From Stramenopiles sp. TOSAG23-6 (taxonomy: Eukaryota; Sar), in the NCBI GenBank assembly GCA_900128565.1, contig LT636013.1, forward strand, positions 1-22,445: a stretch of 22,445 nt of DNA. Direction: 5' to 3'. Both the position numbers and the translations under genes were made by a program. This document shows, piece after piece, positions 1 to 22,445 of this stretch (position 1 is its first letter; every line of letters begins with the position of its first letter). The notes beneath the pieces were generated by a model, which did not search any database, had not been told where the DNA came from, and saw only the letters and a list, made by a program, of their open reading frames with translations.

Positions 1-54
1 TACGAAATTTTGTACCTAACGATTTTTTTTTTGAAATATTTTTCCAAAATACAT
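1..54 (+). other. 3' part of an introner-like intron in the TH1-like gene
   Basis: The stretch matches the 3' halves of the introns at 15020-15111 and, for its first 20 bases, 10336-10429: TACGAAATTTTGTACCTAAC, then a T-run, GAAATATTTTTCC and AAAATACAT. The TH1-like reading frame is open from the end of this element onward. The 5' end of the intron lies outside the window, so its donor is unseen. If it ends like the deaminase intron, the acceptor is ATACAT at 49-54 and the exon starts at 55. Confidence 0.75.
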
Positions 55-2298
55 CACCTGCTGACTTTCACGGAAGCCCTCATTCATTTTCAACACCACA
101 ACAACCACCACGTTCTACATTTTTAAACTTTGATAATGAAGTTGGTGAAAGTATTGCAGATTCATTGAAGGATATTTCTCCGGTTGTTTTACCTAATGAA
201 TGTCAAACTCCAATGCACAAAAAAATGATGTCTTCTACGAAATATACAGATAATGATAATAATAATAATGATTTAATGAATACTATTACATCAATAAATG
301 ATGATGTTACAAGTGATGTAACATTAAAAGATGATTGTGAAGAATTTGTACGACGTGCAAAGTCAATACTTCTTTTAGCAGAACATTCCCAAGGTAAAAA
401 ATCTGGTAATTTAGAACCAGACGATTTAAATAAACTAGCAAAACAATTAAAGAATCTTGTAGTTGAGAGACTTGCTGACTCGGAACCTGTATTTCGTGTT
501 GCAAACGAGTTAAAACTAATGACAAGAGATTTTGGGTTTTCTCTGCAATGTAGGTTCCCATTACTTACTTGGAATTTATTTCATTTTCTGAAGAATTTCG
601 TACCTAACAAATTTCAAATTTGGCATATTTTTTTACAATGTAGGTGCGACTGATATGGAAGCATTACTATACAACAGTCTTTGGAGAGAAAATAAAGATT
701 CAATAGATAAAAAAGATTCGAATAATGAATCTGTATTGTGTCAAGCAAGGCAAATTGGTCTTCAAAAACTTATTGAAAAATCTCGTAGCACAAGTGAAGT
801 GATAACTGCAATTTCGGATGTCTCATTTAATAGTACTACTTCACTTGGAAGTGATAATAAATCACTAAATCTGATAACATCAATAAGCAACAATAGTTAT
901 ACGCATAGCATTGCTGATGGTGGTATGGATAATGGATCACCAGCTGTAGTACATGCACACTCTTTATTAAATCAAGGTATAATTTCAATAGAAGAATTTG
1001 AAGAATTGGTAGAGAAAGATAGGAAATTTAGGTTGAAAGAAACAGTTGATATTGTTCAACAACAACAGACTAATAGAATAACACCAGCAGAATTCAAAGA
1101 ACTTATTGAAGCTCATAAAAACACAACAAATGAAGTACCTATGCACATACTTGAACAAAAGGAATCAGTGAATACTAAAGAGACCACTAAAGATTTTTCA
1201 TCAATGAGTGCTTCATTTATGAATAACTCCGATAGTGATTCTATTTCAATGACTCCACCTTCAATCAAAAATGATGGTACAGTAATTCTTCATAATCCTG
1301 CATTGGTTGTATCGAATGCAACACTTTCTAAACTCAGAAGAGTTTTGAAACGAAAACTGAAATTAATTAAGCAGCGAATTAAAGCAAAAATCATGAGACA
1401 AAGTAGAAAAAAACAAACTAAAGAATCATTGCGACACACATCAACAGTGGAAACGACCAAAACTTCACCTGAAAGTGAATGCTTCACTTTATTTGATGAA
1501 ATACAAAAACATCAACTTCGAGCATTATTAGATAATCAAAAGTTTTTTGAATTATCTTGTCAAAATATAGATTATTATCGTGGTGATTATTTGAATTTAC
1601 GAGGAGATGAAACTGTAAAACAAACCTTAGTACGTGGTGGATCTATGCCACATGAAACTATATTCTTTAGTTCCGTCATTGAACGAGTTCAGCCACAGTC
1701 GTGGTGGAGCAATGGAAGAACACAAAGAATTCTTGTTATAACTGAGGCTGCTGTGTATGAATGTACTACATCTACTGGACAATCATCTATATCTGCTGCT
1801 GTTTGGGGAAGTATTACAAAATCTCCAAGAAAATCTCTACTGGAAAGAACACCAAGTAAATTATTTGCACCTAACTCTGATTCCTTACCTCAAATTGGAT
1901 CACTTTTATTATCAAGTAATAAGACAAAGCTTAGCACCACAACATCTATATTATCTGGAAATAGTAGTAGCAGTTCTAGTAGTTGTCCACAAACTTTTAT
2001 GACAATAGGAAAAGTTATAAAGAGATTTCCATTAGAAAGTATAGGTTGTATATCTCTAAGTAAACTTATAGTTGGTGGAGCGTTCTGTCTAATCATACCT
2101 AGTGAATATGATGTTCTTTTTGACACTGTGAGACGAACAGAAATCGTATCTTGGATGATTCATTTATACGAAATCCGTACGGGTCAGCCATTGATATGTA
2201 ATTTTATGGAAAGCATGTTATTAACATTGGAAGACGGGCAGACAATGACTACTTATTTCGATGAAACAGCTGGGACTGTACGAATGTTAAAATTATAA
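55..2298 (+). CDS. Myosin tail (TH1)-like domain protein, 5' end outside window
   Basis: The gene enters the window through an intron (1-54). Visible exons are 55-549 and 644-2298, joined in frame by a 94-nt GT-AG intron, giving about 715 residues. The N-terminal part is polar, Asn/Ser-rich, with a helical charged block (FVRRAKSILLLAEHSQ and following). Two short segments in the middle resemble SHOCT-like helices (LLNQGIISIEEFEELVEKD; ITPAEFKELIEAH). A very basic stretch (KLRRVLKRKLKLIKQRIKAK) follows. The C-terminal third resembles the class I myosin TH1 tail: GDYLNLRGD, then RILVITEAAVYE, KRFPLESIGCISLSKL, EYDVLFDTVRRTEIV and a final YEIRTGQPL block. TH1 domains bind acidic membrane lipids. 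No motor or IQ motif is visible in this part, but the N-terminus is missing, so whether this is a true myosin or a motor-less TH1 protein cannot be said. TH1 assignment is by eye; moderately sure. Confidence 0.65.
550..643 (+). other. GT-AG intron, diverged member of the TACCTAAC intron group
   Basis: The upstream and downstream coding frames differ by one, and removing 550-643 (94 nt, GTAGGT...AATGTAG) joins them in frame as SLQ-C-ATDMEALL. The intron holds TTTCGTACCTAACAAA, the same core seen in the three near-identical introns, 35 nt before its 3' end. That position fits a branch-point region. A 10-bp direct repeat, CAATGTAGGT, lies at 546-555 and 636-645 across the two splice junctions. 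Confidence 0.75.
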
Positions 2299-2968: not shown

Positions 2969-3238
2969 GGTTTTCAACTAATGAAATTAATATACTTTTG
3001 TATCTCTTTCACCAAGTATGGTCTCTATATGCTTCAGAACAACAAGCCGTGATCACTGATTAGGGTTCGCGAAATTGGAATGCGTGTCGCGGGTCAAAAA
3101 TTTTAGTAGCCCTAAACCCTAACCCTAACCGCATCGATTATGTCATGTGACTCATGTCGAAATTATAGAGGAGAGTTGAAAATTAAAATTTTGAATATTT
3201 TTATATTCCTTTCTTAGTACTCCTCGATTAGTTATATC
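2969..3238. promoter_or_regulatory. Bidirectional promoter region with telomere-like (telo-box) motifs
   Basis: The 270 bp separate the start codons of SmB (-) and the coiled-coil gene (+), so this must serve both. It contains TTAGGGTT at 3060-3067 and, in the opposite orientation, a run of three CCCTAA(A) units at 3110-3130. Plants use similar AAACCCTAA boxes in promoters of growth genes; a similar role here is inference only. Confidence 0.5.
3110..3130 (+). repeat. Interstitial telomere-like motif (CCCTAA)n
   Basis: Three consecutive units, CCCTAAA, CCCTAA and CCCTAA, lie between two divergent genes. It is the longest of the telomere-like motifs in the window and matches a TTAGGG telomere. 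It is too short to be a chromosome end and has genes on both sides. Confidence 0.8.
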
Positions 3239-5470: not shown

Positions 5471-8400
5471 TTATGAATTGAGACGAATTATTTCGTCTTC
5501 TAAGAGTTGAAAGTCAGACCTTGCAGCAGCCAAGTCAGCCATTGCTTGATCTACTAATGTAACACTAACCATTCCTTTTGAGTTAGTTTCAAGTTTTTTT
5601 TCGAGTTTTTCTATATTGTTATCTTTTTCTTTACATTCATCAGATAATGTACAAATTTGTTCATTCATTACATTGATATGAAATGCAAACACTGTACTAG
5701 ACCATTTTCGCATCGCCCTTGAAAGCGAAATATTACTTACTCTTTGAATAAATAAATATAGTATATGAGTTGCTCGCTTCTTTTCGGATGCATTTATACG
5801 TGATATAAAGTTATTGTGTGCCTCTTTCATATAATGATCATTTGTTACACTACACCATCCACGCCATGCTTGAGCTAGTAATTGTTTGCACATTCCTCGG
5901 AGGGTATGATTTATTATATGTAGTGCGTGGACTTTCTTTTGATCTGACATTTTTATCAACATATCTTTATTTTGTAAATTGAAAGAGAGTTGTTCAAGTT
6001 CTCGGTGATATTGAACGAGTTTTCTATGCCATACATGCCAAGCTACACTTAATTGTCTATGTAACAGATGACAAATAACTCTATTCATCATAGATAATGC
6101 ATGACGTTGTGCATCTTCTTCAGCAATTTCATCTAGTACAACTATATGCCATTGTCGCCATCCACGTGCAACCGACATATGTTGCATTCGTAAAACAGTT
6201 TTCTCCAATAGATGTAGTGCATGCCTCCTAGTATGCTCTTCAAAAGTCGCAAATGAACATTCCTCGACCCATGTACGCCAACCCATGGTCAAATAACGAT
6301 TTCGAACAAATTGTAAAAGCTTTTTAAAAAGAAGGAGTTTGAGACATTTTCGATTTTCGACTAACTGCTGAAGTATCATAGATGTTTTCCATTTGTGAAA
6401 ACCACGAGCTAAATATTTTTTCGTCAACGCAAGCACACATTGGTTCATGACAACAAGCATGTGCTGTTTATGAGAAGCTACTTCAGCATGATGTTTTTGT
6501 CGTAAAACTGTCAAAGCTTTCAATAGATGAAATCCACGAGACATTGACGACCGCTTGATACGCTTTGCTGTGTTTTCTATTGTTTGTAGTAACCTGAATA
6601 AATTCTTAGCCACAATTGTATTTTCAAATTTAGCAATACGCTGATCCATCAATAACGCCCGTTGAGATGTTGCATGTCGATGATTTTCTTTGATCCATGC
6701 ATTCCAAGCTTTGACCATCTTTCTGTACTGAATATGGAATATACATTTATTTAATTGTTCGACGGCAGAGGCTTTCCTATTCATGACGGTTGAGTGAATG
6801 TGTGCCGACTTTGTCCACTTCAGTAAACCTTGGGATAATGCTAAATGAGACATACGCCGCGTCGTCTTTTCTATTAAATAAAGAGTGTGTTGTTTATGTT
6901 GTGCCTTTAGCTCAAGTTCTTGGTGATATTTAACGAGTTTTCTATGCCATACATGCCAAGCTACACTTAATTGTCTATGTAACAGATGACAAATAACTCT
7001 ATTCATCATAGATAATGCATGACGTTGTGCATCTTCTTCAGCAATTTCATCGAGCACAACTATATGCCATTGTCGCCATCCACGTGCGAGTCTCACATGG
7101 TATAACGTCTTTAGTATATGTTGTACCATCCTTAACGACGTTAACTTGTTTTGTTGCGCTTCAGAAATATTTTCGTCGTGAATGATACGTTGTTGTACAA
7201 ATTCTGACCATGTATCAAAAGCACCATTAAGTCTATTCCGATAAATTCTTTCGATGGCGGACCCTAGTTTTTTAAATCCATGTCTTAGTGCTATATCCTT
7301 CAATGTTTTTTCATATTCTTGAATAGCCTCAAATTTTTTATGAAGTTGAGTAAATTTCTGACTAAATTTCTGACTAAATTTTAAACTAAGTGTCCAACTG
7401 TTCCAAGCTATACTGTATAATTTCCTTTCTATTCGCCGCACTACACGAGCAATCAATTTTGCAGCTATAACTTTTGTATGTCGAATTGTTTTCTTATGAT
7501 TTATCATTTTGCACCATTTATTCCATCCAGCTAAGGTTTGTAAATGTAGCACATGACCGAATATCCTTGTTATTATTCGCAATGCATCTTTTTTACCTAA
7601 ATTTTTAATGTGTACGTTCAGCCCAACGATCTGCTGATTAAGATCTTTTTTATGTTGTGATAAAATAAAATGCTGCCAAGAATGCCATGCTTTGTTCAAT
7701 ACAGTGTATTCCATATGCCTTATAACAAGAAATAATTTACGGATTTCACGCTCATGCTTATCCAAAATTTCCTTCTGATTCCTTACATAATTTATCCATT
7801 TTAGTAAACCTCGGGATAATGCTAACTGTGCCATTCGCCGTGTCGTCTTTTCTATTAAATAAAGAGTGTGTTGTTTATGTTGTGCCTTTAGCTCAAGTTC
7901 TTGGTGATATTTAACGAGTTTTCTATGCCATACATGCCAAGCTACACTTAATTGTCTATGTAACAGATGACAAATAACTCTATTCATCATAGATAATGCA
8001 TGACGTTGTGCATCTTCTTCAGCAATTTCATCCAGTACAACTATATGCCATTGTCGCCATCCACGTGCAACAGACATATGTTGCATACGTAAAACAGTTT
8101 TCTCCAATAGATGTAGTGCATGTTTCCTTTTATTTTGTTCTACTATTTTTTTGATATCTTCCAGATCTTCCTCTTTTTGCCATATACGATGTGCATGTAG
8201 TAACTGTAACCAAGTATTAAAGCTTTTATGAATATACTTATGCATAATTGCTTTTACTAAAATATTAAGTCTTTTAAGTACTGTTTTTCTATGTCGCTGT
8301 TCATGACTGATTGAACGGCAGAAACCTGCCCATTTATTCCATGCTCTATTATAGAAAATATGTTGAAATTTACCTAAAATATTCATAAGTTTGCATATAG

Positions 8401-8935
8401 CGACATCTTGGGTATGTTCCTTTAATCGCTCACGGATAATAACATCATGCCAGGTGTTCCATGCAGCAGTGTACTTTGCTTTAAGAATATGTTGTACTAC
8501 TCTATTAACTAATTGTACCGCACGATCAAGAGCGGTATTTTCTCTATGATTCTGCAAGGAAATACCTAATGCACTACAATATTGTTTCAATTCAAAAAGT
8601 TCAATAGAAAGCTCTCTATGTTTGTTATCTTTTGATTCATACTCTTCATTCATAGAGGTAAAACTTTGTTTGACAACGTTCAATTCTTGGCGAAGCTTTT
8701 CTTCCCAGATTATGTTTTCAACTTCACTTTGACTCTGTGAGGAAGTATATATTGATTCATCTAAAAATTGATTCATTTTTCGTGTATTATTATTCTTTTC
8801 ACCTGTCAGATTTTTACTCTTTTGAGGTTCTAATTTTTGTGTACTATTATTCTTTTCAACCGTCAAACTTTTAATCTCTTGAGACTCTATTTTTTGTTCT
8901 AAATCTTCATCCCCAGAACTTAGACTAATCTCCAT
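5471..8935 (-). CDS. Sfi1-repeat protein (centrin-binding, centriole/basal body type)
   Basis: The protein of about 1154 residues is dominated by some 20 helical repeats between residues about 150 and 1080. Each carries a short aromatic core such as AWNTWHDV, AWNKWAGF, GWRQWHIV, AWHVWHRK, AWHSWQHF, GWNKWCKM or AWRGWCSV. This pattern is typical of Sfi1, whose repeats each bind one centrin and form a long filament at spindle-pole bodies, centrioles and basal bodies. The N-terminus holds an imperfect tandem repeat (EKNNSTQKLEPQKSKNLTG and EKNNNTRKM), and the C-terminus a short coiled coil. The start is the ATG at 8935 (MEISLSSGDE); the frame continues 11 codons upstream without an ATG. A block of about 75-105 residues occurs three times almost unchanged at the DNA level (see repeats). 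Confidence 0.85.
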   Translation of the reverse strand: MEISLSSGDEDLEQKIESQEIKSLTVEKNNSTQKLEPQKSKNLTGEKNNNTRKMNQFLDESIYTSSQSQSEVENIIWEEKLRQELNVVKQSFTSMNEEYESKDNKHRELSIELFELKQYCSALGISLQNHRENTALDRAVQLVNRVVQHILKAKYTAAWNTWHDVIIRERLKEHTQDVAICKLMNILGKFQHIFYNRAWNKWAGFCRSISHEQRHRKTVLKRLNILVKAIMHKYIHKSFNTWLQLLHAHRIWQKEEDLEDIKKIVEQNKRKHALHLLEKTVLRMQHMSVARGWRQWHIVVLDEIAEEDAQRHALSMMNRVICHLLHRQLSVAWHVWHRKLVKYHQELELKAQHKQHTLYLIEKTTRRMAQLALSRGLLKWINYVRNQKEILDKHEREIRKLFLVIRHMEYTVLNKAWHSWQHFILSQHKKDLNQQIVGLNVHIKNLGKKDALRIITRIFGHVLHLQTLAGWNKWCKMINHKKTIRHTKVIAAKLIARVVRRIERKLYSIAWNSWTLSLKFSQKFSQKFTQLHKKFEAIQEYEKTLKDIALRHGFKKLGSAIERIYRNRLNGAFDTWSEFVQQRIIHDENISEAQQNKLTSLRMVQHILKTLYHVRLARGWRQWHIVVLDEIAEEDAQRHALSMMNRVICHLLHRQLSVAWHVWHRKLVKYHQELELKAQHKQHTLYLIEKTTRRMSHLALSQGLLKWTKSAHIHSTVMNRKASAVEQLNKCIFHIQYRKMVKAWNAWIKENHRHATSQRALLMDQRIAKFENTIVAKNLFRLLQTIENTAKRIKRSSMSRGFHLLKALTVLRQKHHAEVASHKQHMLVVMNQCVLALTKKYLARGFHKWKTSMILQQLVENRKCLKLLLFKKLLQFVRNRYLTMGWRTWVEECSFATFEEHTRRHALHLLEKTVLRMQHMSVARGWRQWHIVVLDEIAEEDAQRHALSMMNRVICHLLHRQLSVAWHVWHRKLVQYHRELEQLSFNLQNKDMLIKMSDQKKVHALHIINHTLRGMCKQLLAQAWRGWCSVTNDHYMKEAHNNFISRINASEKKRATHILYLFIQRVSNISLSRAMRKWSSTVFAFHINVMNEQICTLSDECKEKDNNIEKLEKKLETNSKGMVSVTLVDQAMADLAAARSDFQLLEDEIIRLNS
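5995..6223 (-). repeat. Copy C of near-identical segment inside the Sfi1-repeat gene
   Basis: It is nearly identical in DNA to 7894-8122 (offset 1899 bp, a multiple of three). It encodes the units HALHLLEKTVLRMQHMSVA, GWRQWHIVVLDEIAEED and RHALSMMNRVICHLLHRQ. Only a few substitutions are visible, so the duplication is recent or the copies are kept alike by gene conversion. Confidence 0.85.
6817..7087 (-). repeat. Copy B of near-identical segment inside the Sfi1-repeat gene
   Basis: It matches 7798-8068 (offset 981 bp, a multiple of three). Near-perfect identity runs from about 6861, and the match beyond that is weaker. It encodes the GWRQWHIVV and AWHVWHRKL units plus the following KAQHKQHTLYLIEKTTRRM unit. 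Confidence 0.85.
7798..8122 (-). repeat. Copy A of near-identical segment inside the Sfi1-repeat gene
   Basis: This is the longest copy. Its 5' coding part is shared with copy C and its 3' coding part with copy B, so it spans both partial copies. All offsets keep the reading frame. Confidence 0.85.
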
Positions 8936-9139
8936 ATCTCTTGTAATAAATGCTGCCAGTAAAGGCAAGTTTCACTTATCAAAGCGAACTTTCGTTAAAG
9001 TTGCGAGGATTACGCGTGAGTGAGTAATACGTCGTACACGGTACCACTACTACTACTGCTACTATTAGAGCTAGTACGTAGTATAGCATATAAGAAAGTA
9101 GTATATAACGGACTATATATATACAGTTACATTTTTTTT

Positions 9140-9185: not shown

Positions 9186-10858
9186 TTAAAGTTTGTCAAT
9201 AAGATGAAAACGATGTTTCAAACTATATGGAAATGAATCTTCACTTCTTTCATTCCTTGTATCACTCAGATCTTTCCTATTGATTTTTCTTCTATTTACA
9301 TTTTTTTTTAATTTTTCAAATGTATCATTCTTATGATGCGTTGAATTGTTTAATGGACTTGAAGCACTCTGCATAACCAATTTGAATACATTTTCTCTAT
9401 TTTTTAAGCGTCGTTGAAAATATTTTTGTTTTAGTTCCTTTGCTTTTTCACGACGGTGTACCTCACGAACTGCTGCTTTCAAATATTTTTTAGTTTTTGT
9501 ATCTACCTTAGCACCACTTCCAACGTTTTGGATTTTCGAAATTGTTGTACAACTTTGGTGTTTTTGGTGTTTACTGAACTTATTCTGTTGATGTTTTCTT
9601 TGATACAACTTCTTTTCACTTGGGTTACGCCTTGTGATGTTTGGAACTCGATTCATATGTTTATAGAGCTTAGAGTTCATTTTATTGTCACTTTTTGTAT
9701 TTTTTTGTATTTTTTGTATTTTTTGTATCTTTTGTATTTTTTGTATTTTTTGTATTTTTTGTATTTATATCTTTATGTATAGCAATATGGTTAGGGTTAG
9801 TGCTATCTTTAAGGGCATATGTCGTAGAAGCTAATGTAGAAGGCACATCATCAGGTTCTGTTTTACAAAACCAAGAATGTAATTTCAGTGCTCTTATACC
9901 GTCATTTGGAAAATTAGGTAAACCTTCCGTATTAATGTTCCACCAATTTATTAATTTAGCTCCTCTTGGAGCACCAAACAATCGCGCACTCTTTACAAGA
10001 TCAAACTTTTTAATCCAAATTTGGTTGATACCTATCCCACTACTAGATGAAGTTGGTAAACGAAATTTGTCTAATAAATAACACGGTGGGCCATCTTTCA
10101 ACATTCGCGACTTCGTTTCAGAGCAAGTGGCTTTATTGAATTTATATAAAAAATTATCCCACTGACTACGTTGTAAATTTTGAAGACATTCTAAACATAA
10201 ATACGATGGTCTCCAATATATTTCTCCAATACACTTATACTCACAATAAGTATCATCTGTAATTTGCTTGTAACAATCTTTGCATACTGAAGATGCTGTT
10301 GGCTTTTGGTGACGTACTAACAACTCTGGACGCTCATGTATTGTGAAATTGTTTTTTTGTAATTTGTTTTGTTAGGTACAAAATTTCGTACGAAAAATAA
10401 ATTCGAAATTGAAAAAAAATACAACATACATATTTTCGTATTCGTCTTGTTGCTTCTTTTCGTTGCTTACGGAACTCAAACTTCCTTTGAGATTTTTCTT
10501 TTTTTGTCATCTTTAGCAACACACCATCACAGTATACGCGTGGACGCCAAGCTCTATGAAGTGGTGAATGTCTTTCACGACGTTTCATTTCTACTTCGTC
10601 TTTTCGCAAGACGATTTCTAAGTCAGCTTTTGTAATTGGTACTTTGTCAGGTGGTATACCATCTTTTCCTCGATCTGGTCTGAGTTCATGAGCTGTCGCA
10701 TCATCCTGACCTTTTATTTCTAATGAATCAGCATCCCAATATAGAACACGATATATATTGGTCACTGGATCAACGAAGAGAACTCTACAACCCCACCACC
10801 GTCCACTAAGAAAATAAAAAGCGTCATCACCTTGAGAAAAACAAGGGTTGGTATTCAT
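9186..10858 (-). CDS. Tudor-like and Cys-rich protein of unknown function, frameshifted in this assembly
   Basis: I read this as one gene. Exon 1 (10858-10430) begins at an ATG and encodes a Tudor/agenet-like start (GRWWGCRVLFVDP, YRVLYWDADS, HELRPDRG) and a basic helix. After an introner-like intron, exon 2 encodes a Cys-rich segment with a CKDC...C...C...CLEC pattern that could bind zinc. A low-complexity KNT repeat comes next, where the frame ends at 9688. A second open frame starts at an ATG only 7 bp later (9680-9186) and encodes a very basic tail. Shortening one 7-base A-run by one base (9700-9706 on the plus strand) fuses the two frames with no stop. Each part is clear; that they are one protein is inference. 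I do not recognise the family. Confidence 0.55.
9691..9765 (+). repeat. 9-bp tandem repeat (GTATTTTTT) encoding KNT on the minus strand
   Basis: About eight units of GTATTTTTT, one with C replacing T, lie in the coding region. On the minus strand they read Lys-Asn-Thr. Most units have six T, but the one at 9700-9706 has seven, and this breaks the reading frame. Such runs are prone to slippage in the cell and to sequencing error. Confidence 0.85.
9788..9798 (+). repeat. Telomere-like motif inside coding sequence
   Basis: GGTTAGGGTTA lies in the Cys-rich gene and is read on the other strand as Thr-Asn-Pro-Asn. It is short and could be chance, but four more such sites occur in the window. Confidence 0.5.
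10336..10429 (-). mobile_element. Introner-like intron in the Tudor-like gene
   Basis: Its first two thirds are almost identical to the intron at 15020-15111: GTATGTTG, T-run, CAATTTCGAATTTATTTTTC, the palindrome TTTCGTACGAAA, and TGTACCTAAC. The last third differs, but it ends in the same ATACAT. Removing 94 nt joins ...RRIRKY to ERPELLVRHQ in frame. Because ATG occurs at both junctions, the ends can be read as AT-AC, TG-CA, GT-AT or TA-TG. A GT-AG reading (10333-10429, acceptor ATGAG) is also in frame here, so this gene alone does not prove an odd splice site. Confidence 0.75.
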
Positions 10859-11187
10859 ATTATATACAAAAAATCCAACTTAAAACATGCTTCTATAGTC
10901 GTAAGTAAAAAAAACTGATGCTTTTGATCCTTGCTACACTCTTACGGTTATTAGACAGTTCCTATTTGATAATAATAAGAACAACAACCATGCTTTGTCG
11001 TGAGAGCGAACAAAAAAAAATTAATATATATAAATATGTTTGGGGTGTGAATAGAGAAAGACCGTTAAACCTTTAAAACGGACGAAAAATTGAAGAAGAA
11101 TTCGTGATGATGACCGATGACTGACCTCACGCGATTGTTAACTTTCAGACGCATCACCAAAATTCTTCGACAGCACTAACATTCAAC
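10859..11187. promoter_or_regulatory. Divergent promoter region between Tudor-like gene and PCID2
   Basis: The 329 bp lie between two start codons pointing outward and must hold both promoters and 5' leaders. It is AT-rich with short A-runs. I see no gene, RNA, repeat or clear element in it. Confidence 0.45.
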
Positions 11188-12495
11188 ATGGCTTGTCTTT
11201 CGAATGACGCGGAATTACGTGCATTTCTTGTACGTTTCATGGAGGCTGTTCGCGATAGAGATAGTTCGCGTTTATCGGAAGGTTTTGTGGCCCCAAAAGG
11301 AGCTACAGAAATAGTAAATACAAAATTTCTTGGGTCAATTTCTATTGAGTCGGCGTGTGCTTCAATTGCTGTGGGAAGTTGTGAACCATATGCTAACATT
11401 TTAGCTCTCAGACTTCAAAGTCGTGTTGCAGCTGCTGAACCAAACCCCGAACCCCTGAGAGCATATGAATTGGAGAAGGAATTGGCGTCAAAGTTTTTAC
11501 AAATATTCACAGGAGAAGACAACTGGCTTTGTCCGTCGCTTTATGCCATTGTCCGCAACTTACGAGTGGCAGCAACTCGTGCTGATGCAACAGCTATTGC
11601 AGCTCGTCCTTCTGGTGAAAACCGCGATAAGCGTACTCGTGTAGAGCCTACAAAATGTCTTAATGACTGTGTTCAACTTTTGTTATCAGCATTTCGACAG
11701 ACTGTAAGTGATCGTGCTCCACTTGAAGTGAGTAAAAAAGTAGCAACAATATACGTAGCTGTAAACTTGTTTAAAGTTTATTTTCGAGTAAATAAGGCGT
11801 CGAAGTGTACGGAAGTTTATCAAGCAGTAGCAAAACTCCCACGATTTCCTAAAATTGAATCTTTTCCGCTTGCGCATAGCGTTGCGTATCAATATTACGT
11901 TGGACGCCTTCACATGTTAGAGGGAAGTAATGAACTTGCTGAGCGAGAACTTTCTTTTGCTTTACAGCATTGTGATAAGTCACACAGAGTAAATATAAGA
12001 AAGATTCTAGCATGTCTTATTCCTGTTAGAATGCTTCGTGGTACTATGCCATCTTTATCATTACTGAAAAAGTTCGGATTATTAGAATTTACAGATATTG
12101 TGAAGGGAGTAAGAACTGGAGATGTAAGACTTTTCAGGAATGCACTTTCACGACATCAATCCATATTTATAGAACAAGGCACATTTTTAGTTCTTGAGAA
12201 ATTACGAAATCTTACATATAGAAATTGTTTAAAACGTTTATGGTTTATCAATGGAAGCGGAAAACGTCTTGATACTAGAGAAATTGTGCGGATATTTAGT
12301 TGGTTAGATATTTTCAATGAAGGATATATTTCTACAAAAATTGATGAAGAAGAACAATTGGATGATGTGGAATGTATTCTTGCTAATCTTATTCATAGCG
12401 GTTTTGTCAAAGGTTATATTGCTCATAATCATAGAAAACTTGTACTTAGTGGTAAAAATGCTTTTCCCAGTGTAAAACAAGTACTTCAAAAATAA
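11188..12495 (+). CDS. PCID2: PCI domain protein PCID2/Thp1 (TREX-2 mRNA export complex)
   Basis: The 435-residue protein aligns along its length with animal PCID2 and yeast Thp1, the PCI scaffold of TREX-2 that couples transcription to mRNA export at the nuclear pore. Diagnostic blocks are VNLFKVYFRVNKASKC, YQYYVGRLHMLEG, AERELSFALQHC, ILACLIPVRMLRG, SLLKKFGLLEF, FLVLEKLRNLTYRNCLKR and, in the winged helix, DVECILANLIHSGFVKGYI followed by HNHRKLVLS and NAFP. The PCI and winged-helix part occupies about residues 200-415. Length is close to the animal protein. The ATG at 11188 opens the frame. AATAAA at 12491-12496 overlaps the stop and may help polyadenylation. It converges on the helicase gene (91 bp). 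Confidence 0.93.
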   Translation: MACLSNDAELRAFLVRFMEAVRDRDSSRLSEGFVAPKGATEIVNTKFLGSISIESACASIAVGSCEPYANILALRLQSRVAAAEPNPEPLRAYELEKELASKFLQIFTGEDNWLCPSLYAIVRNLRVAATRADATAIAARPSGENRDKRTRVEPTKCLNDCVQLLLSAFRQTVSDRAPLEVSKKVATIYVAVNLFKVYFRVNKASKCTEVYQAVAKLPRFPKIESFPLAHSVAYQYYVGRLHMLEGSNELAERELSFALQHCDKSHRVNIRKILACLIPVRMLRGTMPSLSLLKKFGLLEFTDIVKGVRTGDVRLFRNALSRHQSIFIEQGTFLVLEKLRNLTYRNCLKRLWFINGSGKRLDTREIVRIFSWLDIFNEGYISTKIDEEEQLDDVECILANLIHSGFVKGYIAHNHRKLVLSGKNAFPSVKQVLQK

Positions 12496-12497
12496 AA

Positions 12498-12511
12498 TTA
12501 GGGTTAGGGTT
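12498..12511 (+). repeat. Interstitial telomere-like motif (TTAGGGTTAGGGTT)
   Basis: Two TTAGGG units begin two bases after the PCID2 stop codon, in the 91-bp convergent gap before the helicase stop. Here the motif is in 3' flanking DNA, not in a promoter. Confidence 0.75.
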
Positions 12512-12586
12512 GAGTATGTAATTTAACTTTTTGTTTGCTTTTTGTTTTATATATATATTTATGATTAGACCGTGACTAACATTCAT

Positions 12587-14509
12587 TTAGAAGGATTTAC
12601 ATTTCGATTTTCCCGCTGATTCTTTTTGNTTTTTTTTTTGTTGTGATATATTTTTTCTATTACGATTGCGCACTCGTTTAGGTTGTTTTAGTTTTGGTGA
12701 TGATGGACCATTGTTTTTTCGTTTACTATGTTGTTGTTGTTGTTGTTGTTGTTGCTTTTGTTTTTGTTGTTGTTGTTGTTGTTGTCTTTGAATTACATCT
12801 TTATTTACTTTACTACGTTTTTTAATAGAAGAACTACTGGAAGAATTTCGTCTGACATCACGAGAAACATGTGGTCTGATATCACGATCAACATTTTGCT
12901 TTTGGTGTAATTTCTTTTTTGGACCACCACAACAATCAGGTAAAGATAAAAACCAACTTGGAATATTTGATCCACTTTCTTTCAAGGCTGCTAGAATATC
13001 TTTAGCAAGTTTTCCATTTTCCGATTTCTTATCCATACCAGGCATATAAAATGTAGTTGCCACTCCATTATGTCCTGCACGACCTGTTCTTCCAATTCGG
13101 TGTACATAGGAATCAAATTCATCTGGTAGAGAAAAATTTATTACATGTTCAATATTTGGAATATCTAGTCCTCTTGCAGCAACATCAGTAGCTACAAGAA
13201 TACGAACTTTCCCGTACCGAAATTGTTTTAATGCCGATTCTCTTTGGTTTTGACTTCGATCACCATGAATGGCAACTGCACTTAGATCAACTGTTTCTTG
13301 TATATACTTTTCCTTTTCACTATTAGGTGTAGGATTATTATTACTAATTTTAACCTTTTCACTATTAGGTGTAGGATTATTATTACTAATTTTAACTAAT
13401 TGTTTTGTCAACCAACGGGCTTCTGATTTTTTCTTTACAAAGACTAAAGTTCTTCCACTAATTTTGGAAAGTTCATGTAGTAACATATCAAGTTTGGCTC
13501 TTTTATCTTTTGGTGCATGCAATATGATTTGTTTAATTGCCTCTACAGTTCCTCCAACTTTACCAACAGCAACAAATACATAATTTTTATGCAAGAAAGA
13601 AGACGCCAATTTCTGGATTGAAACTGGAAAAGTAGCAGAGAAAAGAAACGATTGACGTCCCATACTTGAGGACATCATACCACGCTGCATCACTATTTTT
13701 CTAATTTGTGGTTCAAAACCCATGTCAAGCATTCGGTCTGCTTCATCAAGAACTAAAAATTTGCACTTTTGGAGTGAAATTAAACCTCTGTCAACAAAAT
13801 CTTGCAAACGACCTGGTGTTGCTACTAGAACATATAGCTTATTGTATGCGAGTGCTGCCAATTGTGGTTTTGCCTTTGCACCGCCATATACAACTGCTGT
13901 TTGAATATTTGATTTAAAAGTGAGTTTTTTTGCTTCTAACTCAATTTGTTGAGCAAGTTCACGAGTAGGAGCTAGAATGAGTGCCCTTGGCATACAAGGT
14001 GATGTTATTGCAGCTTTCGCTATAGATCCTGTAGAATGAATAGCAGCACAAAGAGGCAAAAGAAATGCAAATGTCTTACCAGAGCCGGTTTGTGCGCAAC
14101 ACATGAGATCGTGACCAAATAAACCAAGGGGAACAGCGTGCTTCTGAATAGGTGTTGGTGTCTTATACCCCATTCTCTGAATGTTACTCTTTAGAAAACC
14201 AGGAATATTTTTTATATCAGAGAATTTTTCTAAAGATGAAACCTCATCCGCATTTGGACCGGAGCGGACGACATTGATTTTATCATATGCTTTGAAATTT
14301 ATACCCACTGTACCACTTTTCTTGCCAAACAGTTGTTCAATTGATAGTGTTTCTTGTTTCGACCCTCCCTTCTTTGACGCCAACTTTTCTTTCATTTCCC
14401 AGAAATATTTTCCTTCGGTAGCTGCTTTTTCAGCCATCGCCTGTAATTGCTTAGCACGGCGACCCTGCTTGCGTTGCTTGCGCTTGGACAAAGCATTTAC
14501 ATCAGCCAT
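12587..14509 (-). CDS. DEAD-box ATP-dependent RNA helicase (DDX3/Ded1-like group)
   Basis: The protein of about 640 residues has all core helicase motifs in order: Q motif (GYKTPTPIQKHAVP), motif I AQTGSGKT near residue 140, PTRELAQQ near 182, TPGRL near 231, DEAD near 254, SAT near 290, then RTLVFV, VATDVAARGLDIP near 446 and HRIGRTGRAG near 473. These features place it with the DDX3/Ded1/DDX5-like helicases that unwind RNA with ATP; which subgroup is uncertain. The N-terminus is basic (KRKQRKQGRRAKQ). The C-terminus carries Ser, poly-Gln and basic tracts. A perfect tandem duplication of 14 residues sits in the second RecA domain. The start is the ATG at 14509. One undetermined base at 12629 makes the last residues uncertain. 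Confidence 0.92.
   Translation of the reverse strand: MADVNALSKRKQRKQGRRAKQLQAMAEKAATEGKYFWEMKEKLASKKGGSKQETLSIEQLFGKKSGTVGINFKAYDKINVVRSGPNADEVSSLEKFSDIKNIPGFLKSNIQRMGYKTPTPIQKHAVPLGLFGHDLMCCAQTGSGKTFAFLLPLCAAIHSTGSIAKAAITSPCMPRALILAPTRELAQQIELEAKKLTFKSNIQTAVVYGGAKAKPQLAALAYNKLYVLVATPGRLQDFVDRGLISLQKCKFLVLDEADRMLDMGFEPQIRKIVMQRGMMSSSMGRQSFLFSATFPVSIQKLASSFLHKNYVFVAVGKVGGTVEAIKQIILHAPKDKRAKLDMLLHELSKISGRTLVFVKKKSEARWLTKQLVKISNNNPTPNSEKVKISNNNPTPNSEKEKYIQETVDLSAVAIHGDRSQNQRESALKQFRYGKVRILVATDVAARGLDIPNIEHVINFSLPDEFDSYVHRIGRTGRAGHNGVATTFYMPGMDKKSENGKLAKDILAALKESGSNIPSWFLSLPDCCGGPKKKLHQKQNVDRDIRPHVSRDVRRNSSSSSSIKKRSKVNKDVIQRQQQQQQQKQKQQQQQQQQHSKRKNNGPSSPKLKQPKRVRNRNRKNISQQKKXQKESAGKSKCKSF
12629..12629. 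other. Undetermined base (n) in the helicase C-terminus
   Basis: A single n sits beside a run of T, within the last 15 codons of the helicase gene. The run length is probably unresolved, so the predicted C-terminus (KKXQKESAGKSKCKSF) could be in another frame. Confidence 0.95.
12728..12784 (-). repeat. CAA/CAG-type microsatellite encoding poly-Gln
   Basis: GTT-type triplets on the plus strand read on the minus strand as two Gln blocks separated by KQK, in the helicase C-terminal tail. The tract is likely to vary in length between individuals. Confidence 0.85.
13313..13396 (-). repeat. Perfect 42-bp tandem duplication in the helicase gene
   Basis: The units 13313-13354 and 13355-13396 are identical. 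They encode VKISNNNPTPNSEK twice, in a loop after the RTLVFV motif of the second RecA domain. It is in frame and polar, and so probably a tolerated surface insertion. Perfect identity points to a recent event. Confidence 0.92.
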
Positions 14510-14685
14510 TGTCACGAGAACTCGTTTTTGCCGAAGTCAAGTAACCAACACAAAAGGAAGATCCAAAAAAAAACGAAAAAAATTTCGCAAAAATTTCGTC
14601 TAAAAAAAAAGTTTAAATGATATAATAAATAACTAATAACCGCATAATAACCTTGTAAAAAACATAGTTGTTTTAATTCAATAAA

Positions 14686-15779
14686 TTACAACTGTTTAGA
14701 CTTTTTTGAATAAACATTTTCACCCTTTTCATCATGGATGCCATTATTATTTTGTCCAGATGAAAGAGATTTTATTGTGTTATTCGTAGATAAACTTCTT
14801 TTTTTTCCCAAAATTTGGTCAACTGAAGAATTACTAGAATGAGTGGGTACAATATTTAATATATCTGCACCTTTCATTGGACCTCCAGATGTATTCATAT
14901 TATGTGTTGCTTCTAGTCCTTTGAAGTATTTCACAGTTTTAACCCGTAACTCTAACGTTGCATCTTCGTCACAAACAACGCAAGCTCGTGGATGCATTTG
15001 AAGCATTGAAACAGTCCACATGTATTTTGGAAAAATATTTCAAAAAAAATCGTTAGGTACACAATTTCGTACGAAAAATAAATTCGAAATTGAAAAAAAA
15101 ATAAAACATACATGTGACTAATACCTTCCTCAATGCATTTATACATCGCATACGCTTTGTGTGCACCTGTTATAATAATCAATACTTCGCGTGAATCCAT
15201 TACAGTACCAACGCCTACTGTAAGCGCCATTTTGGGTACTTTCGAAATGTCATTGTCAAAAAACCTAGAATTGGCAACTATTGTGTCATAAGCTAATGTT
15301 TTCACACGTGTACGTGATGTCAAGCTTGAACCCGGTTCATTGAATGCAATATGCCCATCTGGCCCAATACCACCCAAGAATAATTCAATACCCCCGTATT
15401 GAAATATTTTTTCTTCATATAAACGGCACTCTTCGACCAAATCATTTGCGTTGCCATTCAGCATGTGAACGTTGTTTGGATCAATGTCCACGTGTTTGAA
15501 TAAGTTATTCCACATAAAAGCATGGTATGATTCTGGATGATCTTCGGCGATACCGACGTATTCATCCATATTGAATGTTGCAACATATTTGAAGCTTAAT
15601 TCCCCCGCGTTATAAAAATTTACAAGTTGTTTGTATACTGGGATGGGAGATGAGCCAGTTGGCAACCCAAGAACAAAAAGATTATTGGCACTTGGTGCGT
15701 ACTCTGTGATACGTTTTTGAACATATTTCGCAACCCAAAGTCCAGCATCATCCTTAGATTCCTTGATAATAATACGCAT
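14686..15779 (-). CDS. GNPDA: Glucosamine-6-phosphate deaminase (GNPDA/NagB)
   Basis: It converts glucosamine 6-phosphate to fructose 6-phosphate and ammonia, linking amino sugars to glycolysis in the cytosol. Exons 15779-15112 and 15019-14686 encode about 333 residues. The N-terminal 270 align without gaps: [17 protein letters not shown] (Asp72, general base) and [18 protein letters not shown] (Asp141, His143, Glu148), all with the same numbering as E. coli NagB. The second exon resumes exactly in the conserved HM-WTVS block and reaches [23 protein letters not shown] tail of about 60 residues, Ser/Asn-rich and ending in KKSKQL, is longer than in bacterial or animal enzymes. The intron is introner-like. 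It diverges from the phosphate carrier gene. Confidence 0.94.
15020..15111 (-). mobile_element. Introner-like intron with non-GT-AG ends in the deaminase gene
   Basis: A 92-nt intron interrupts the conserved HM-WTVS block. No AG exists near the 3' junction, so a canonical acceptor is excluded if that block is kept. The flanks share ACATGT, so the cut can slide; GT...AT (GTATGTTTT to AAAATACAT) keeps a normal donor and matches the other copies. The donor side GTAT-GT-TTT is complementary to AAA-ATAC at the acceptor side. Inside are the palindrome TTTCGTACGAAA and TACCTAAC (plus-strand 15052-15059), 32 nt before the end. The 3' 50 nt match window bases 1-54. Confidence 0.85.
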
Positions 15780-17590: not shown

Positions 17591-18969
17591 ATGTTCAAGT
17601 GGGCTAAATATATCACCACGCTGTGCTTTCTTTGGATGATGCCAGTTAAGAGTAATAAATACGCTGTTGCTAAGATCGAGTCCTCCGATGGTTCAGCCAC
17701 TGTTAGTGGTTTCGTTCAGTTTATCCAAATCGCAGACGGTGACGTACTTATGAGTTATTCTATTACAGGTTTAACACCTGGGAAACACGGTATTCATGTA
17801 CATCAAAATGGCGATTGCACGGACACAAAAACACTAAAAACATTAGGATATCATTTTATACCAATAATGTCTTGTGATCCTGAAGGTGACAAAGACAAGT
17901 ATGAAGCCTGCAAGAACGTCAGTTTTCACGGTATGCCACCTGAAGTGAAGAGACAATCTGGTGATATGGGTAATATTGATGTGTCTGCTCAAGGTGTAGC
18001 AACGGGCAGTGTCCTACTCGGGCAGTCAAAGCTAAGTCTCACTGATCAATTTTTATCAATAATCGGTCGATCCGTTGTAATTCACGCAGGAGAAGATAAG
18101 GGCAGCAGTGCACAACCTTGGGGTGATGCTGGTGGGCATATTTGGTATTTATCCAAAGATTTTTTCTTTTTACACTATATTAGTATATACTTGTTTTTAC
18201 TCAGTTTAACTACATTTGATATATCATATACATGACAGCGGAAGCATACGGGATTATTGGAATAGCTAATCCAGCCATGCTTGTTAATCTTCGTTTACCA
18301 TATGAACCAAATAAGTGCACAGCAAACAATGCTGCTGATCCAACTAAACCAACTGCCGGGTGTGCTCCAATTAATCCTGCTCCAAAAACAAACACTGCAA
18401 TAGCACCGTCGCTTCCTCATGTTCAAAAGGTTGTTTGCAACTTCACTGGTCCATATATCAAAGGAAAAGCAATTATTTATAAACCAGATTTTTCGAAAGC
18501 AGAAGCTACGCTCCAGTCCGAATTTACTGTCACAGAAAAATGTCCTGATGGTTGTAAAACATTATCCTGGCATTTTCATATGTTTGGAGATACACCTTCA
18601 TTTGACGAATCTAAACCAGATACTTCTCAAAGTATGGGTCCAGTATTTACTTCAGAAACATTAGTACTTGATACAATTTCAAGGACAGCAAATTCAAGTG
18701 ACGTCTATTTTATTGACCAATTTACACCCAAAAGTCTTCTGGATCACGTTGGAATTACACTGACGCTACACTCGCCAGCAGGTGGACCACCATATCATCC
18801 AACAGTGGCAGCTGCGGTCTGCGGAATTGCTTCTCCAGATACATGCATTGATAAAGATGGCGGTTGTTCCAAAGCAGTACTAATTCATGGCAATCCTAGT
18901 ACAACACAAAGCTTAAGTATAGTGTTTATGGTATTCATTATGTCTTCTTCTTTATGGTGTCAGCAGTAA
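17591..18969 (+). CDS. Secreted tandem Cu/Zn superoxide dismutase-like protein
   Basis: Two coding parts, 17591 to about 18144 and about 18234 to 18969, are joined by a short intron. Residues 1-20 look like a signal peptide. Domain 1 is SOD: KHGIHVHQNGDC (His69, His71), GYHF (His88), FHGMPP (His113), SGDMGN (Asp125), GRSVVIHAGED (His165) and, across the intron, GDAGGHI...AYGIIGIA. The second of the Zn His pair is Gln122 (KRQSGD against the usual RHVGD), the active-site Arg is His, and the usual C-terminal Cys is Tyr. Domain 2 has WHFHMFGD, then LTLHSPAG and AAAVCGIASP, but lacks the zinc-binding loop. The C-terminus is hydrophobic after polar residues, as in a GPI-anchor signal. An extracellular or surface location is inferred. 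Activity of domain 1 is possible; that of domain 2 is doubtful. Confidence 0.85.
18145..18233 (+). other. Intron in the SOD-like gene, borders uncertain, apparently not GT-AG
   Basis: The SOD frame before and after this stretch differs, and homology requires joining GDAGGHI to AYGIIGIA. With the donor GTATTTATCC at 18145, the AG at 18238 gives the wrong frame. Ending at ATACAT (18233) gives 89 nt, the right frame and HIWTAEAYGII, with GT...AT borders as in the deaminase intron. A canonical 56-nt alternative (18183-18238) is in frame but adds about 14 mostly hydrophobic residues inside a conserved block. Confidence 0.55.
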
Positions 18970-20937: not shown

Positions 20938-22445
20938 ATGATTAGAGCACTTCATCGCTGGTTGCATGCACCTGTATGTAGCTTTTCACTTTCGTTATTC
21001 CGTATTTTATTTGGTATTGTCATGGCAATATCGAGTATTAAGCATTTTAATCGATTAGACGAAGTCCGTTCTTCATTCCGACTTTACTATTCTGGCTTTT
21101 CATGGATTCCCAAGTTTGCATTCTCAAATATGAAACTTCAGGTCATTGCTATGGGAGTTGCATCTATTTTAATTTCATTTGGTCATAAAGCTATGTACCG
21201 ATTCGCTGTGTTAGTTGCGCTTATTTTGTACTCGTTATTGTTTTTCAGTGATGCTACCTATTACAACAATCACTATTATCTCATTATACTTTTCTTGTTG
21301 TTTTTTTCGGTAACTGATGCAAATACATATGGAATTCAGGATATAATCAACGAATTGATAAGTTGGTGTACGTTTTCAAAATATCATAGTCAAACAATTA
21401 GGAAAGTGCAACGCTGGCAAGTTGTTTTGTTCAAGGTTCAGATTTCACTTGTCTATTTTTTTGCAGGCATTTCAAAACTCAATTCTGAATGGCTTCGAGG
21501 ATACCCAGTAATGAAGTTAAGCATAGATTGTTATCGAAAAGCGTTTATTGATGTTATTGGATTTCGTGCATCGCATGAGGATGTAATTATTCCACTAATA
21601 TTTACATATTTTATATGCTATGGTGGTTTGATATTTGACATTGTTATAGGATTCATTTTGATGAGTTCTTCCTCAGCTACAAGAAAGAAAGGTCTACAAT
21701 TTGCAGCTTTGTTCCATATCATGAATTATTTTATGTTTGATATTGGTGTATTTCCTTTTTTAATGCTATGTACATCAGTGTTATTTATAGATTGTAGAAA
21801 TATTGAAAGAGACTCTTTTTCAGCTGATAATAATTCACAAGATTTTATTGACGATACAAAAAGTAGAAAGTCAATGAAAGATTTTGTTGACGATACAAAA
21901 CGTAGAAAGTCAAAGAAAGATTTTGTTGACGATACAAAAAGTAGAAAGTCAAAGATAATTACGTTTATTCTTTTGATATTCTTTAGTATACAATTTTGTT
22001 TACCATTACGACATTACTGGTATCAATACAAATATGCTGATTATATAATTCACAATTTTCCAATAGACGCTTATGACATAGATTCATTAAACCCTAACCC
22101 TGAAACCCCTAACCCTTCGGAAACAGATTTCGATACTATCTCATTAAAGCAGGTTCGTGTTGGATGGACAGGATTAGGAGAGCTGTTTGCATGGCGTATG
22201 ATGCTTACATCCAAAATCTGTAATGGACAGTTTCATGTGAAAATACGGGGAGGAAAACATCAAAGAATAAAAATTGTGGACACTATTTTAAATACTGATC
22301 TACTATATATCACTCAAAGACAAGCTTTTCGAGTATTCCAATATCCTCATTATATCGTACAAGCAGCTCAACATACAAAAGTATTGATTGATAATGAAAT
22401 AGATACATTTACGTCAAAAATCTCCGCGGTGGGGTCATCATCTCG
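20938..22445 (+). CDS. Vitamin K-dependent gamma-carboxylase (HTTM) homologue, 3' end outside window
   Basis: The frame opens at the ATG at 20938 and stays open to the window end, about 502 residues. Several membrane helices span residues 15-310 (HTTM domain). Blocks align with animal GGCX: YYNNHYYLIILFLLFFSVTDAN (residues 108-129), LVYFFAGISKLNSEWLRGYP (171-190), FHIMNYFMFDIGVFPF, and WTGLGELFAWRMML. Lys180 aligns with the catalytic Lys218 of human GGCX, and the preceding Lys is Ser. GGCX makes gamma-carboxyglutamate in the ER using reduced vitamin K, CO2 and oxygen; whether this protein carboxylates Glu is not shown by sequence. A polar threefold repeat interrupts it at residues 302-340. 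A telomere-like motif is translated as LNPNPETPNPS. Confidence 0.88.
   Translation, partial: MIRALHRWLHAPVCSFSLSLFRILFGIVMAISSIKHFNRLDEVRSSFRLYYSGFSWIPKFAFSNMKLQVIAMGVASILISFGHKAMYRFAVLVALILYSLLFFSDATYYNNHYYLIILFLLFFSVTDANTYGIQDIINELISWCTFSKYHSQTIRKVQRWQVVLFKVQISLVYFFAGISKLNSEWLRGYPVMKLSIDCYRKAFIDVIGFRASHEDVIIPLIFTYFICYGGLIFDIVIGFILMSSSSATRKKGLQFAALFHIMNYFMFDIGVFPFLMLCTSVLFIDCRNIERDSFSADNNSQDFIDDTKSRKSMKDFVDDTKRRKSKKDFVDDTKSRKSKIITFILLIFFSIQFCLPLRHYWYQYKYADYIIHNFPIDAYDIDSLNPNPETPNPSETDFDTISLKQVRVGWTGLGELFAWRMMLTSKICNGQFHVKIRGGKHQRIKIVDTILNTDLLYITQRQAFRVFQYPHYIVQAAQHTKVLIDNEIDTFTSKISAVGSSS
21841..21957 (+). repeat. Three 39-bp tandem repeats in the gamma-carboxylase gene
   Basis: The units start at 21841, 21880 and 21919 and encode DF(I/V)DDTK(S/R)RKSxK three times. 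They differ at a few bases. The charged block lies between two membrane segments, so it probably forms an expandable loop. Confidence 0.92.
22088..22115 (+). repeat. Telomere-like motif inside coding sequence
   Basis: Two or three imperfect CCCTAA units, as AACCCTAACCC then CCCCTAACCC, are read as Asn-Pro repeats within the gamma-carboxylase homologue. The segment lies where GGCX homologues have a variable loop. Confidence 0.7.

Follow-up and report, generated by a model that had tools for sequence, protein, structure and literature searches.

The window, by which we mean the whole stretch of DNA that was analysed (22,445 nt), carries introns that are nearly identical to one another, as the first-pass annotation had proposed. 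Two of them are complete and lie on the minus strand; one of 94 nt at 10336–10429 (GTATGTTG...GTACCTAAC...TCACAATACAT/, where the slash marks the splice junction) and one of 92 nt at 15020–15111 in a gene for glucosamine-6-phosphate deaminase (GTATGTTTT...GTACCTAAC...CCAAAATACAT/). They have 49 nt in common at 98% identity, and the coordinates first given to them are the exact ends (GTATG...ATACAT). The third, at 1–54 on the plus strand, is the 3′ part of a copy and is partial because the contig (C63) starts within it. It agrees with the 3′ end of the deaminase intron over 30 nt at 100% or, in another register, over 41 nt at 85%, and its own end (CCAAAATACAT/CACC) was placed by this similarity. 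Some further contigs likewise start or stop within a copy.

The deaminase intron shows the arrangement most clearly. Its GT donor (15110–15111, minus strand) forms the first two bases of the element and is preceded by the exon bases AT at 15112–15113, which are the same as the final two bases of the intron (15020–15021, minus strand). The presumed branch-point motif, GTACCTAAC, lies at 15052–15060 (minus strand), and the AT at the end of the intron (ACAT/) occupies the position where AG would be expected. Neither complete intron of the window has AG at its 3′ end, and nor does the similarity-placed end of 1–54. Removal of 10336–10429 joins ...RRIRKY/ERPELLV..., and the exons tested around it, which had been called Tudor-like, gave no Pfam match at E≤0.01.

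A fourth and more diverged intron of the window, at 550–643 on the plus strand (GTAGGT...GTACCTAAC...ACAATGTAG/), has the same GTACCTAAC motif and belongs to a myosin-TH1 gene, with a Pfam Myosin_TH1 match downstream of it. Its reading frame is compatible with GT-AG (CTG CAA T/GT GCG ACT GAT); the upstream frame also reads through it as far as a TGA at 651–653, and a gene-model run set a different intron nearby, at 599–639. From its sequence, 550–643 is probably an intron with GT-AG ends.

A family of introns across the genome

The search of the assembly with the 92-nt deaminase intron returned identities of 92–100% at all 40 of the places scored (the query’s own place included), these being drawn from the 1561 candidates that a first look at this genome gave. 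Exact matches in 8.03 Mb amounted to 589 cores, 745 3′ halves and 1009 5′ halves, counts that include duplicate contigs, whereas reversed-pattern controls in the same 8.03 Mb gave none. The proposal of an introner family is thus borne out on a larger scale than first stated, with hundreds of copies genome-wide on both contig strands. Two exact introner patterns had no match in the viral contigs that were searched.

The copies are laid out as GTAYGTTT...GTACCTAAC...T-tract...AATAC-NN/, in which NN is mostly AT, and their ends can also be described as GTATGTTT...AATAC. The length mode is 92 nt and GTACCTAAC lies about 35 nt from the 3′ end. In a sample of 79 copies, consisting of the loci that were fetched and within which gene location and strand were scored, the donor GTATGT/GTACGT is near-invariant (G in 76/79, T in 78/79), and when copies are aligned to both splice ends the nearest-neighbour identity has a median of 0.82 and reaches 0.95. 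The sense orientation noted for the window extends to this sample, with 56 copies sense, 1 marginally antisense and 22 undecided.

These strand counts bear on whether the segments are introns at all. Short, AT-rich and mostly bounded by AT repeats, they could be DNA segments eliminated during nuclear development, similar to IESs. However, DNA elimination would have no reason to follow the gene strand, and the segments contain a branch motif, shared with introns compatible with GT-AG, together with a T-tract. We find an IES-like origin scarcely credible.

The predicted position of the 3′ cut

When GT..AATACNN is removed, the frame is open over ±90 nt at 67 of the 79 junctions, as compared to 16 and 21 for the other two frames; where a single frame is open, it is this one in 40/79 and the others in 1 and 4. 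With the intron retained 13/79 are open, and the antisense frames give 11, 7 and 11. The set of copies with strict ends behaves similarly over ±60 nt, with 38/41 open against 17 and 19 in the other frames. The 12/79 junctions that are not open at ±90 nt are provisionally attributed to mis-called ends, neighbouring introns close by or non-coding sites.

It might be argued that these are ordinary GT-AG introners whose real acceptor is a nearby AG, since there is nothing unusual in the GT donor or the branch motif, and the two introns that share the branch motif and fit AG by frame (550–643 of the window and C4:728–829) would be in keeping with this. Moreover, 2/83 of the 3′ halves among the matches listed end in AG, and an AG is present between the branch motif and the called end in 16/79 copies. 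Against this, a cut at the first AG at least 10 nt past the branch motif leaves only 31/79 junctions open, as opposed to the 67/79 for the AT-type end, and moving the cut to the next AG past the called end gives 35/79 open and 30/79 in frame, close to the one-third expected by chance. Around 88 branch motifs, a free search for both splice sites, supportive of AT though a loose test, found AT better in 30, AG in 2, a tie in 51 and neither in 5.

Conserved proteins provide a second line of evidence. Six AT-ended junctions in five such proteins show no gap in alignments to solved homologues; these are found in NagB (the deaminase, 15020–15111), RPA2, ClpB, a CHD-type helicase (ADE/MGLGKT) and a PIG-A-like glycosyltransferase, in which two introns fit GT-AT and both junctions are gap-free. 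The next AG would remove a median of 17 exon bases, deleting them from NagB, ClpB, RPA2 and CHD, which align without gaps. The GT-AG reading is therefore already contradicted and we regard it as highly improbable. The residue at the junction can also distinguish a GT-AT from an AT-AC intron. In ClpB, GT-AT yields V, as in three homologue chains, and AT-AC yields I. The RPA2 junction residue would be S or Y where homologues have M, M and C, which does not separate the two, and at the second PIG-A-like junction, worked by hand, the residues are identical under either.

A possible target-site duplication and the mode of spread

The two bases before GT equal the two at the 3′ end of the intron in 64/79 copies, with 5000 shuffles giving a mean of 50.7 and a maximum of 59. 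In the strict set the match is 33/41 (10000 shuffles, mean 26.6, maximum 33, such that the best shuffle equals the observed value). Strict copies whose 3′ dinucleotide is other than AT have that same dinucleotide before GT in 4/5 cases, as do 2/2 further copies with unusual acceptors paired by coordinate. AT precedes GT in 30/41 strict copies and, where it does not, the 3′ end is still AT in 7/11; AT thus seems to belong to the acceptor.

One explanation for the frequent AT ahead of GT is that these are AT-AC introns, with the two bases before GT being intronic and a cut, possibly made by a minor-type spliceosome, that falls after AATAC. Indeed, where both dinucleotides are AT, removal of ATGTAYG...AATAC yields an identical mRNA. 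However, since it is the 3′ side that mostly keeps AT when the two differ, the downstream exon would have to begin with AT each time, and the V of ClpB is the residue of GT-AT. Neither the introner donor nor its branch motif matches what we take to be the U12 consensus. We judge AT-AC introns to be improbable.

Also improbable, to a similar degree, is that these are nonconventional introns of the euglenid and diplonemid kind, whose ends are base-paired and which are removed without a spliceosome. The fold of the deaminase copy does close in an 8-bp stem at its ends, to which the AT repeats contribute (z −2.2), and the element is flanked by short direct repeats, but contiguous pairing of the element’s own ends amounts to 3–5 bp in 48/79 copies and is absent in 17. 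Furthermore, the available text of PMC6221363 and PMC12621601 describes such introns as having no U1-matching donor, whereas here there is a near-invariant GTATGT/GTACGT, a branch motif and a T-tract.

Contiguous terminal inverted repeats reach at most 5 bp (4–5 bp in 29/79 copies, 3 bp in 19 and fewer in 31), and in a control slid by 3 none of the 79 has any. Inverted repeats this short are weak for a DNA transposon and, along with the strong sense bias in scorable copies, they would be compatible with spread by reverse splicing of intron RNA instead of DNA transposition. Yet the bias could be explained by selection against orientations that cannot be spliced, and the agreement of unusual acceptors with the bases before GT would be expected of a target-site duplication (TSD) and not of reverse splicing. 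Reverse splicing consequently seems unlikely to us, less sharply so than the readings above.

The best explanation, to which we assign a probability of roughly 80%, is that these are DNA-transposon-like introners that bring their own donor and branch site, take the last two acceptor bases from a 2-bp TSD, and are spliced by a host spliceosome that accepts AT. From the sequence we infer removal at the RNA level by the spliceosome, transposition at the DNA level and a changed recognition of the 3′ splice site. Short non-autonomous elements, spanning GTAYGTTT to AATAC, would insert into DNA with a preference for AT and produce a 2-bp TSD. The element would supply the 5′ splice site (GTATGT/GTACGT), the strong branch motif GTACCTAAC and the T-tract, and the final two intron bases would be the duplicated target bases, so that a cut after them would restore the mRNA exactly. 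With AT as the usual target the resulting introns would be GT-AT, and the major spliceosome of the host, which is proposed to remove them, would therefore have to accept an acceptor that is not AG.

Comparison with known systems

The introners of Aureococcus and Micromonas are, as Huff et al. in 2016 reportedly concluded, a DNA-transposon-like element whose insertion creates an intron, and in this the present family resembles them. It differs in its acceptor, which does not appear to be AG (67/79 junctions open at the AT-type end, 31/79 at the first AG). In the Aureococcus introners, according to PMC7789003, the splicing motifs are canonical and the inverted repeats do not vary in length. The introner reading of the first-pass annotation, which named these two genera as examples, is upheld in copy number, occurrence on both contig strands and sense bias, but not in the ordinary ends that it implied, the acceptor being AT or another dinucleotide, often one copied from the exon side; that annotation had passed over the missing AG.

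Closest to the present family are the introners of Amoebophrya and the AT-ended introns of Fritillaria. Amoebophrya is a dinoflagellate parasite in which more than 60% of introns are not GT-AG and introners are flanked by short direct repeats with transposon-like spread (PMC7789003). On this description the two share repeated introns in a unicellular eukaryote, non-GT-AG ends and flanking direct repeats. The Amoebophrya introners have inverted repeats of 8–20 nt, direct repeats of 3–5 nt and no common end dinucleotides (PMC7789003), whereas here there is one set of motifs, a near-invariant GT donor with a branch motif, a 2-bp repeat, a mostly AT acceptor and no inverted repeat longer than 5 bp.

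An AT 3′ end is found in the tunicates Fritillaria, where the parts of PMC13326754 used here give it for 44% of introns in F. pellucida and 34% in F. borealis, with a YAY triplet ahead of the intron and at its end that the C/T-A-T at the intron end here resembles. The same parts give AG/AC and AG/AT as the major non-canonical classes and report a duplicated U2AF in F. borealis (PMC13326754). Those classes, found in animals, begin with AG, while the introns of the present family begin with GT and are copies of one repeat, so that agreement is confined to the acceptor.

Gozashti et al. (2022; PMC9860276) reported introns that resemble one another across unrelated genes right up to the splice ends, the recruitment of splice sites from TSDs, and one family in which the element carries the 5′ site while the 3′ site is co-opted. 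The present family is like these in its unrelated genes, its similarity to the splice ends and, as proposed, a splice site derived in part from a TSD. The repeats that the study cites for earlier families are 3–9 bp and its TSD method text has a GY/AG core, as opposed to 2 bp and AT here; the passages covered show no AT-acceptor family and model ‘canonical splice-site usage’. As for the nonconventional introns of euglenids and diplonemids, the available text of PMC6221363 and PMC12621601 gives short direct end repeats, possible end pairing and a proposed MITE-like origin. All three have a counterpart here, the third as a proposal; the GTATGT/GTACGT donor, for which the U1 match is judged from the donor alone, the branch motif and the shortness of the end pairing are differences. 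PMC5778133 and PMC8163842, in the passages covered, say nothing about acceptors, and in the passages of the open-access literature that were covered no GT-AT introner was found described.

Other introns and the host

A second class of introns (CACAATAC), taken to be older than the main class, ends in T in 36/36 cases among the matches listed (AT 25, GT 7, TT 4). Together with the two PIG-A-like GT-AT introns, these ends favour a loss of the AG rule throughout the lineage. In this wider proposal the major spliceosome would still require GT but would largely have dropped the AG rule, introns of both older and younger origin would for the most part descend from waves of one introner lineage and have an AC-N-T acceptor, and the transposon’s preference for AT would have rewritten the 3′ splice-site signal of its host. 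We hold this tentatively, finding it slightly easier to doubt than to accept.

A gene-model likelihood scan of 16 acceptor dinucleotides with a GT donor ranked AT best (741 nats) and AG 12th (432). With a composition-only intron model, TT came first, followed by TA and AT, with AG 14th, and a donor scan put GT 6th. The acceptor scan thus tracks dinucleotide abundance and its control did not single out the GT donor, so we give it no weight. The same weakness applies to a flat-acceptor run, in which 14/47 introns under 150 nt end in AT and 0 in AG, and to a run allowing AT and AG equally with introns of up to 400 nt (48 AT, 1 AG and 1 truncated, n=50), where an in-frame ACAT lies 9 nt before the end of the lone AG intron.

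Searches of the contigs for U2 and U6 snRNA and U2AF35 gave no match, in an assembly that is partial and where RNA controls likewise went unmatched, so that these blanks carry no weight. The 5′ end of the 18S (~565 nt) was located at C1:1–564, and in a PCID2 tree the window protein groups only with one EukProt protein and one JGI contig.

Discussion

AG is the 3′ end of almost all introns, and the sudden gain of introns in large numbers through introners is well documented. Both introners and introns lacking AG are thus known; what the sequences suggest to be new is an introner family with a GT donor and a mostly AT acceptor. The element seems to supply all of the signals of an intron except the last two bases, which appear to be taken from the duplicated target. 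If this is true, mobile elements are able to shift a splicing rule once considered nearly universal, and the organism would offer a natural GT-AT genome in which to study the 3′ splice-site step (U2AF1, Prp8). Gene prediction that insists on AG would get many of the intron-bearing genes of this organism and its kin wrong.

Copies in the genome

Near-identical introns in unrelated genes had been claimed in the first-pass annotation, and the comparison bears this out: the introns at 10336–10429 (reverse strand, Tudor-like gene) and 15020–15111 (reverse strand, glucosamine-6-phosphate deaminase, NagB) are 98% identical over 49 common nt, and 30 nt of the partial copy at 1–54 (forward strand) are identical to the 3′ terminus of that deaminase intron. 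The hundreds of copies that it named as support are also present. Throughout the genome searched (8.03 Mb in 408 contigs, the window being the entire contig C63), there were 589 exact matches to the core (TTTCGTACGAAATT, 0–12 nt, GTACCTAAC), 745 to the 3′ half and 1009 to the 5′ half, with 0 for each reversed-pattern control.

These counts are inflated by mirror-duplicated contigs, C2 and most of C4 being mirror duplicates as judged from match positions. Among 100 listed matches each of the 3′ half and the 5′ half, 17 and 18, respectively, were judged duplicates from palindromic or twin contigs, thus the real copy numbers are perhaps a fifth lower; diverged copies are missed by exact matching, a bias in the opposite direction. 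Moreover, copies are interrupted by contig starts or ends at C63:1, C11:1, C15:3, C29:6, C29:27675, C212:1 and C325:1, and therefore the family seems to break the assembly and its true copy number may exceed the count. By match positions C27, C33 and C37, like C2 and C4, are mirror-duplicated in full or part, a pattern that would be expected of amplified single cells or whole-genome-amplification chimeras. The match lists of C13 and C14 are nearly the same, and an 18S 5′ end lies at C1:1–564.

Intron ends and reading frame

The ends were defined on 92 non-identical exact GTACCTAAC anchors, a sample non-random over the genome (best matches, first-listed matches, six contigs and 14 short stretches), of which 79 had both ends scored and sufficient flank. 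The 5′ consensus is GTAYGTTTT and the 3′ consensus is a T-tract, AATAC and two further bases (NN), with modes of 92 nt for length and 35 nt from the last A of the presumed branch motif GTACCTAAC to the intron end; in a few copies the 3′ end was mis-called at TTGAAATAT, which is not the real end. Nearest-neighbour identity ranges from 0.52 to 0.95 (median 0.82), from near-identical to strongly diverged copies, and the copies fall into a GTATG...CCAAAATAC class and a GTACG...TCACAATAC class, some being mixed forms.

When GT..AATACNN is removed, the frame is open across 67 of 79 junctions (90 nt each side) and closed across 12, against 16 and 21 open in the other two frames, 11, 7 and 11 in the antisense frames and 13 with the intron retained; it is the exclusively open frame in 40 copies, the others in 1 and 4. 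At 60 nt each side the values are 73 against 33 and 38, and in the strict set of 41 copies, with exact end motifs but NN left free, 38 against 17 and 19. Canonical GT-AG introners, with an AG near the called end as acceptor, would be the alternative, and an AG does precede the called end in 16 of 79 copies. However, cutting at the earliest AG that lies 10 nt or more past the branch motif leaves only 31/79 junctions open. The next AG after the called end gives 35/79 open junctions, is in frame in 30/79 (chance being one third) and would cost a median of 17 exon bases. Therefore, on these frame results, AG is not the acceptor in most sampled copies. Gene-model scans of the dinucleotides were given no weight because their control was poor.

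Joined products point the same way as the frame with GT..AATACNN removed: junctions align without gap to solved homologues in NagB (402 bits), RPA2, ClpB, a CHD-type helicase (within ADEMGLGKT) and a PIG-A-like glycosyltransferase, where both of two introns behave thus (the first with donor GTTTGT), although this last alignment is to bacterial glycosyltransferases at only 43 bits, with gaps away from the junctions. The ClpB copy has differing NN, GT before the donor and AT at the 3′ end; a GT-AT cut gives V, matching the three chains shown, whereas an AT-AC cut gives I. The RPA2 residue does not discriminate between the two.

By coding score of the joined flanks, 56 of the 79 copies are sense, 1 is antisense (marginal) and 22 are undecided, so the sense orientation in genes proposed earlier holds among the scorable copies of this sample. 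This bias fits removal at the RNA level and argues against the copies being DNA segments eliminated from the genome.

Acceptor dinucleotide and proposed target duplication

Among the matches listed, 83 non-duplicate 3′ halves were tallied. The 3′ NN in the CAAAATAC class (n = 47) is AT in 39, TT in 3, AC in 2, AG in 2 and CT in 1, and in the CACAATAC class (n = 36) AT in 25, GT in 7 and TT in 4; the exon bases preceding the donor are AT in 59/82 of those listed. The same NN stands on both sides in 64/79 sampled copies, against a mean of 50.7 and a maximum of 59 in 5000 shuffles, and in 33/41 of the strict set, where 10000 shuffles average 26.6 and their maximum, 33, equals the observed value. 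Strict copies with a non-AT acceptor carry equal NN upstream in 4/5, and those with non-AT upstream NN have AT downstream in 7/11, both small numbers. Coordinate-paired copies agree in 12/15, including both non-AT acceptors, and the 3 mismatches all have AT downstream. Because of these match patterns, in small numbers, we propose that insertion would make a 2-bp target-site duplication (TSD), with AT preferred as target, after which the exon-side NN may drift while the acceptor would remain or become NT.

Other features of the contig

Three 278-nt repeats (5892–8068, reverse strand), 74–96% identical to the reference copy, lie within a single long ORF (5471–8968). Neighbouring forward-strand ORFs at 17591–18235, by eye superoxide-dismutase-like, and 18232–18969 overlap by 4 nt and are possibly a single gene broken by a frame change. 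The contig-end gene (20941–22443, forward strand) carries HTTM and vitamin K-dependent gamma-carboxylase lumenal domains (Pfam). Short telomere-like CCCTAA/TTAGGG stretches, seen by eye near 3110–3130, 9140, 9790, 12500 and 22090, are inter- or intragenic and could be promoter boxes.

Known introners and the standard spliceosome

Introners are already known. Amoebophrya has introners that are not GT-AG, with longer repeats than here and no common end, in contrast to the fixed GT donor here (PMC7789003); Fritillaria has AG donors with AT and AC acceptors, sharing the AT acceptor but not the GT donor, and U2AF is duplicated in F. borealis (PMC13326754); and an introner survey cites TSDs of 3–9 bp for earlier families and reports families in which a splice site is recruited from the TSD (PMC9860276). 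Within the open-access text searched, we found no description of introners in which the GT donor is fixed and the TSD supplies an AT acceptor.

Contiguous end pairing of the element itself is at most 5 bp in the 79 sampled copies, and in the deaminase copy 8 bp including the AT repeats (z −2.2). The branch motif also occurs inside introns that fit GT-AG by frame, at C4:728–829 (ending TTTTCAG) and at 550–643 (forward strand) of the window. The latter is only probable, because the upstream frame reads through to a TGA at 651–653 and a gene-model run placed the intron at 599–639; a 10-bp direct repeat, CAATGTAGGT, borders it at 546–555 and 636–645, which does not agree with the 2-bp pattern seen in the other copies. 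Since GTACCTAAC is common to these GT-AG-compatible introns, the motif suggests that one machinery may serve both AT and AG acceptors.
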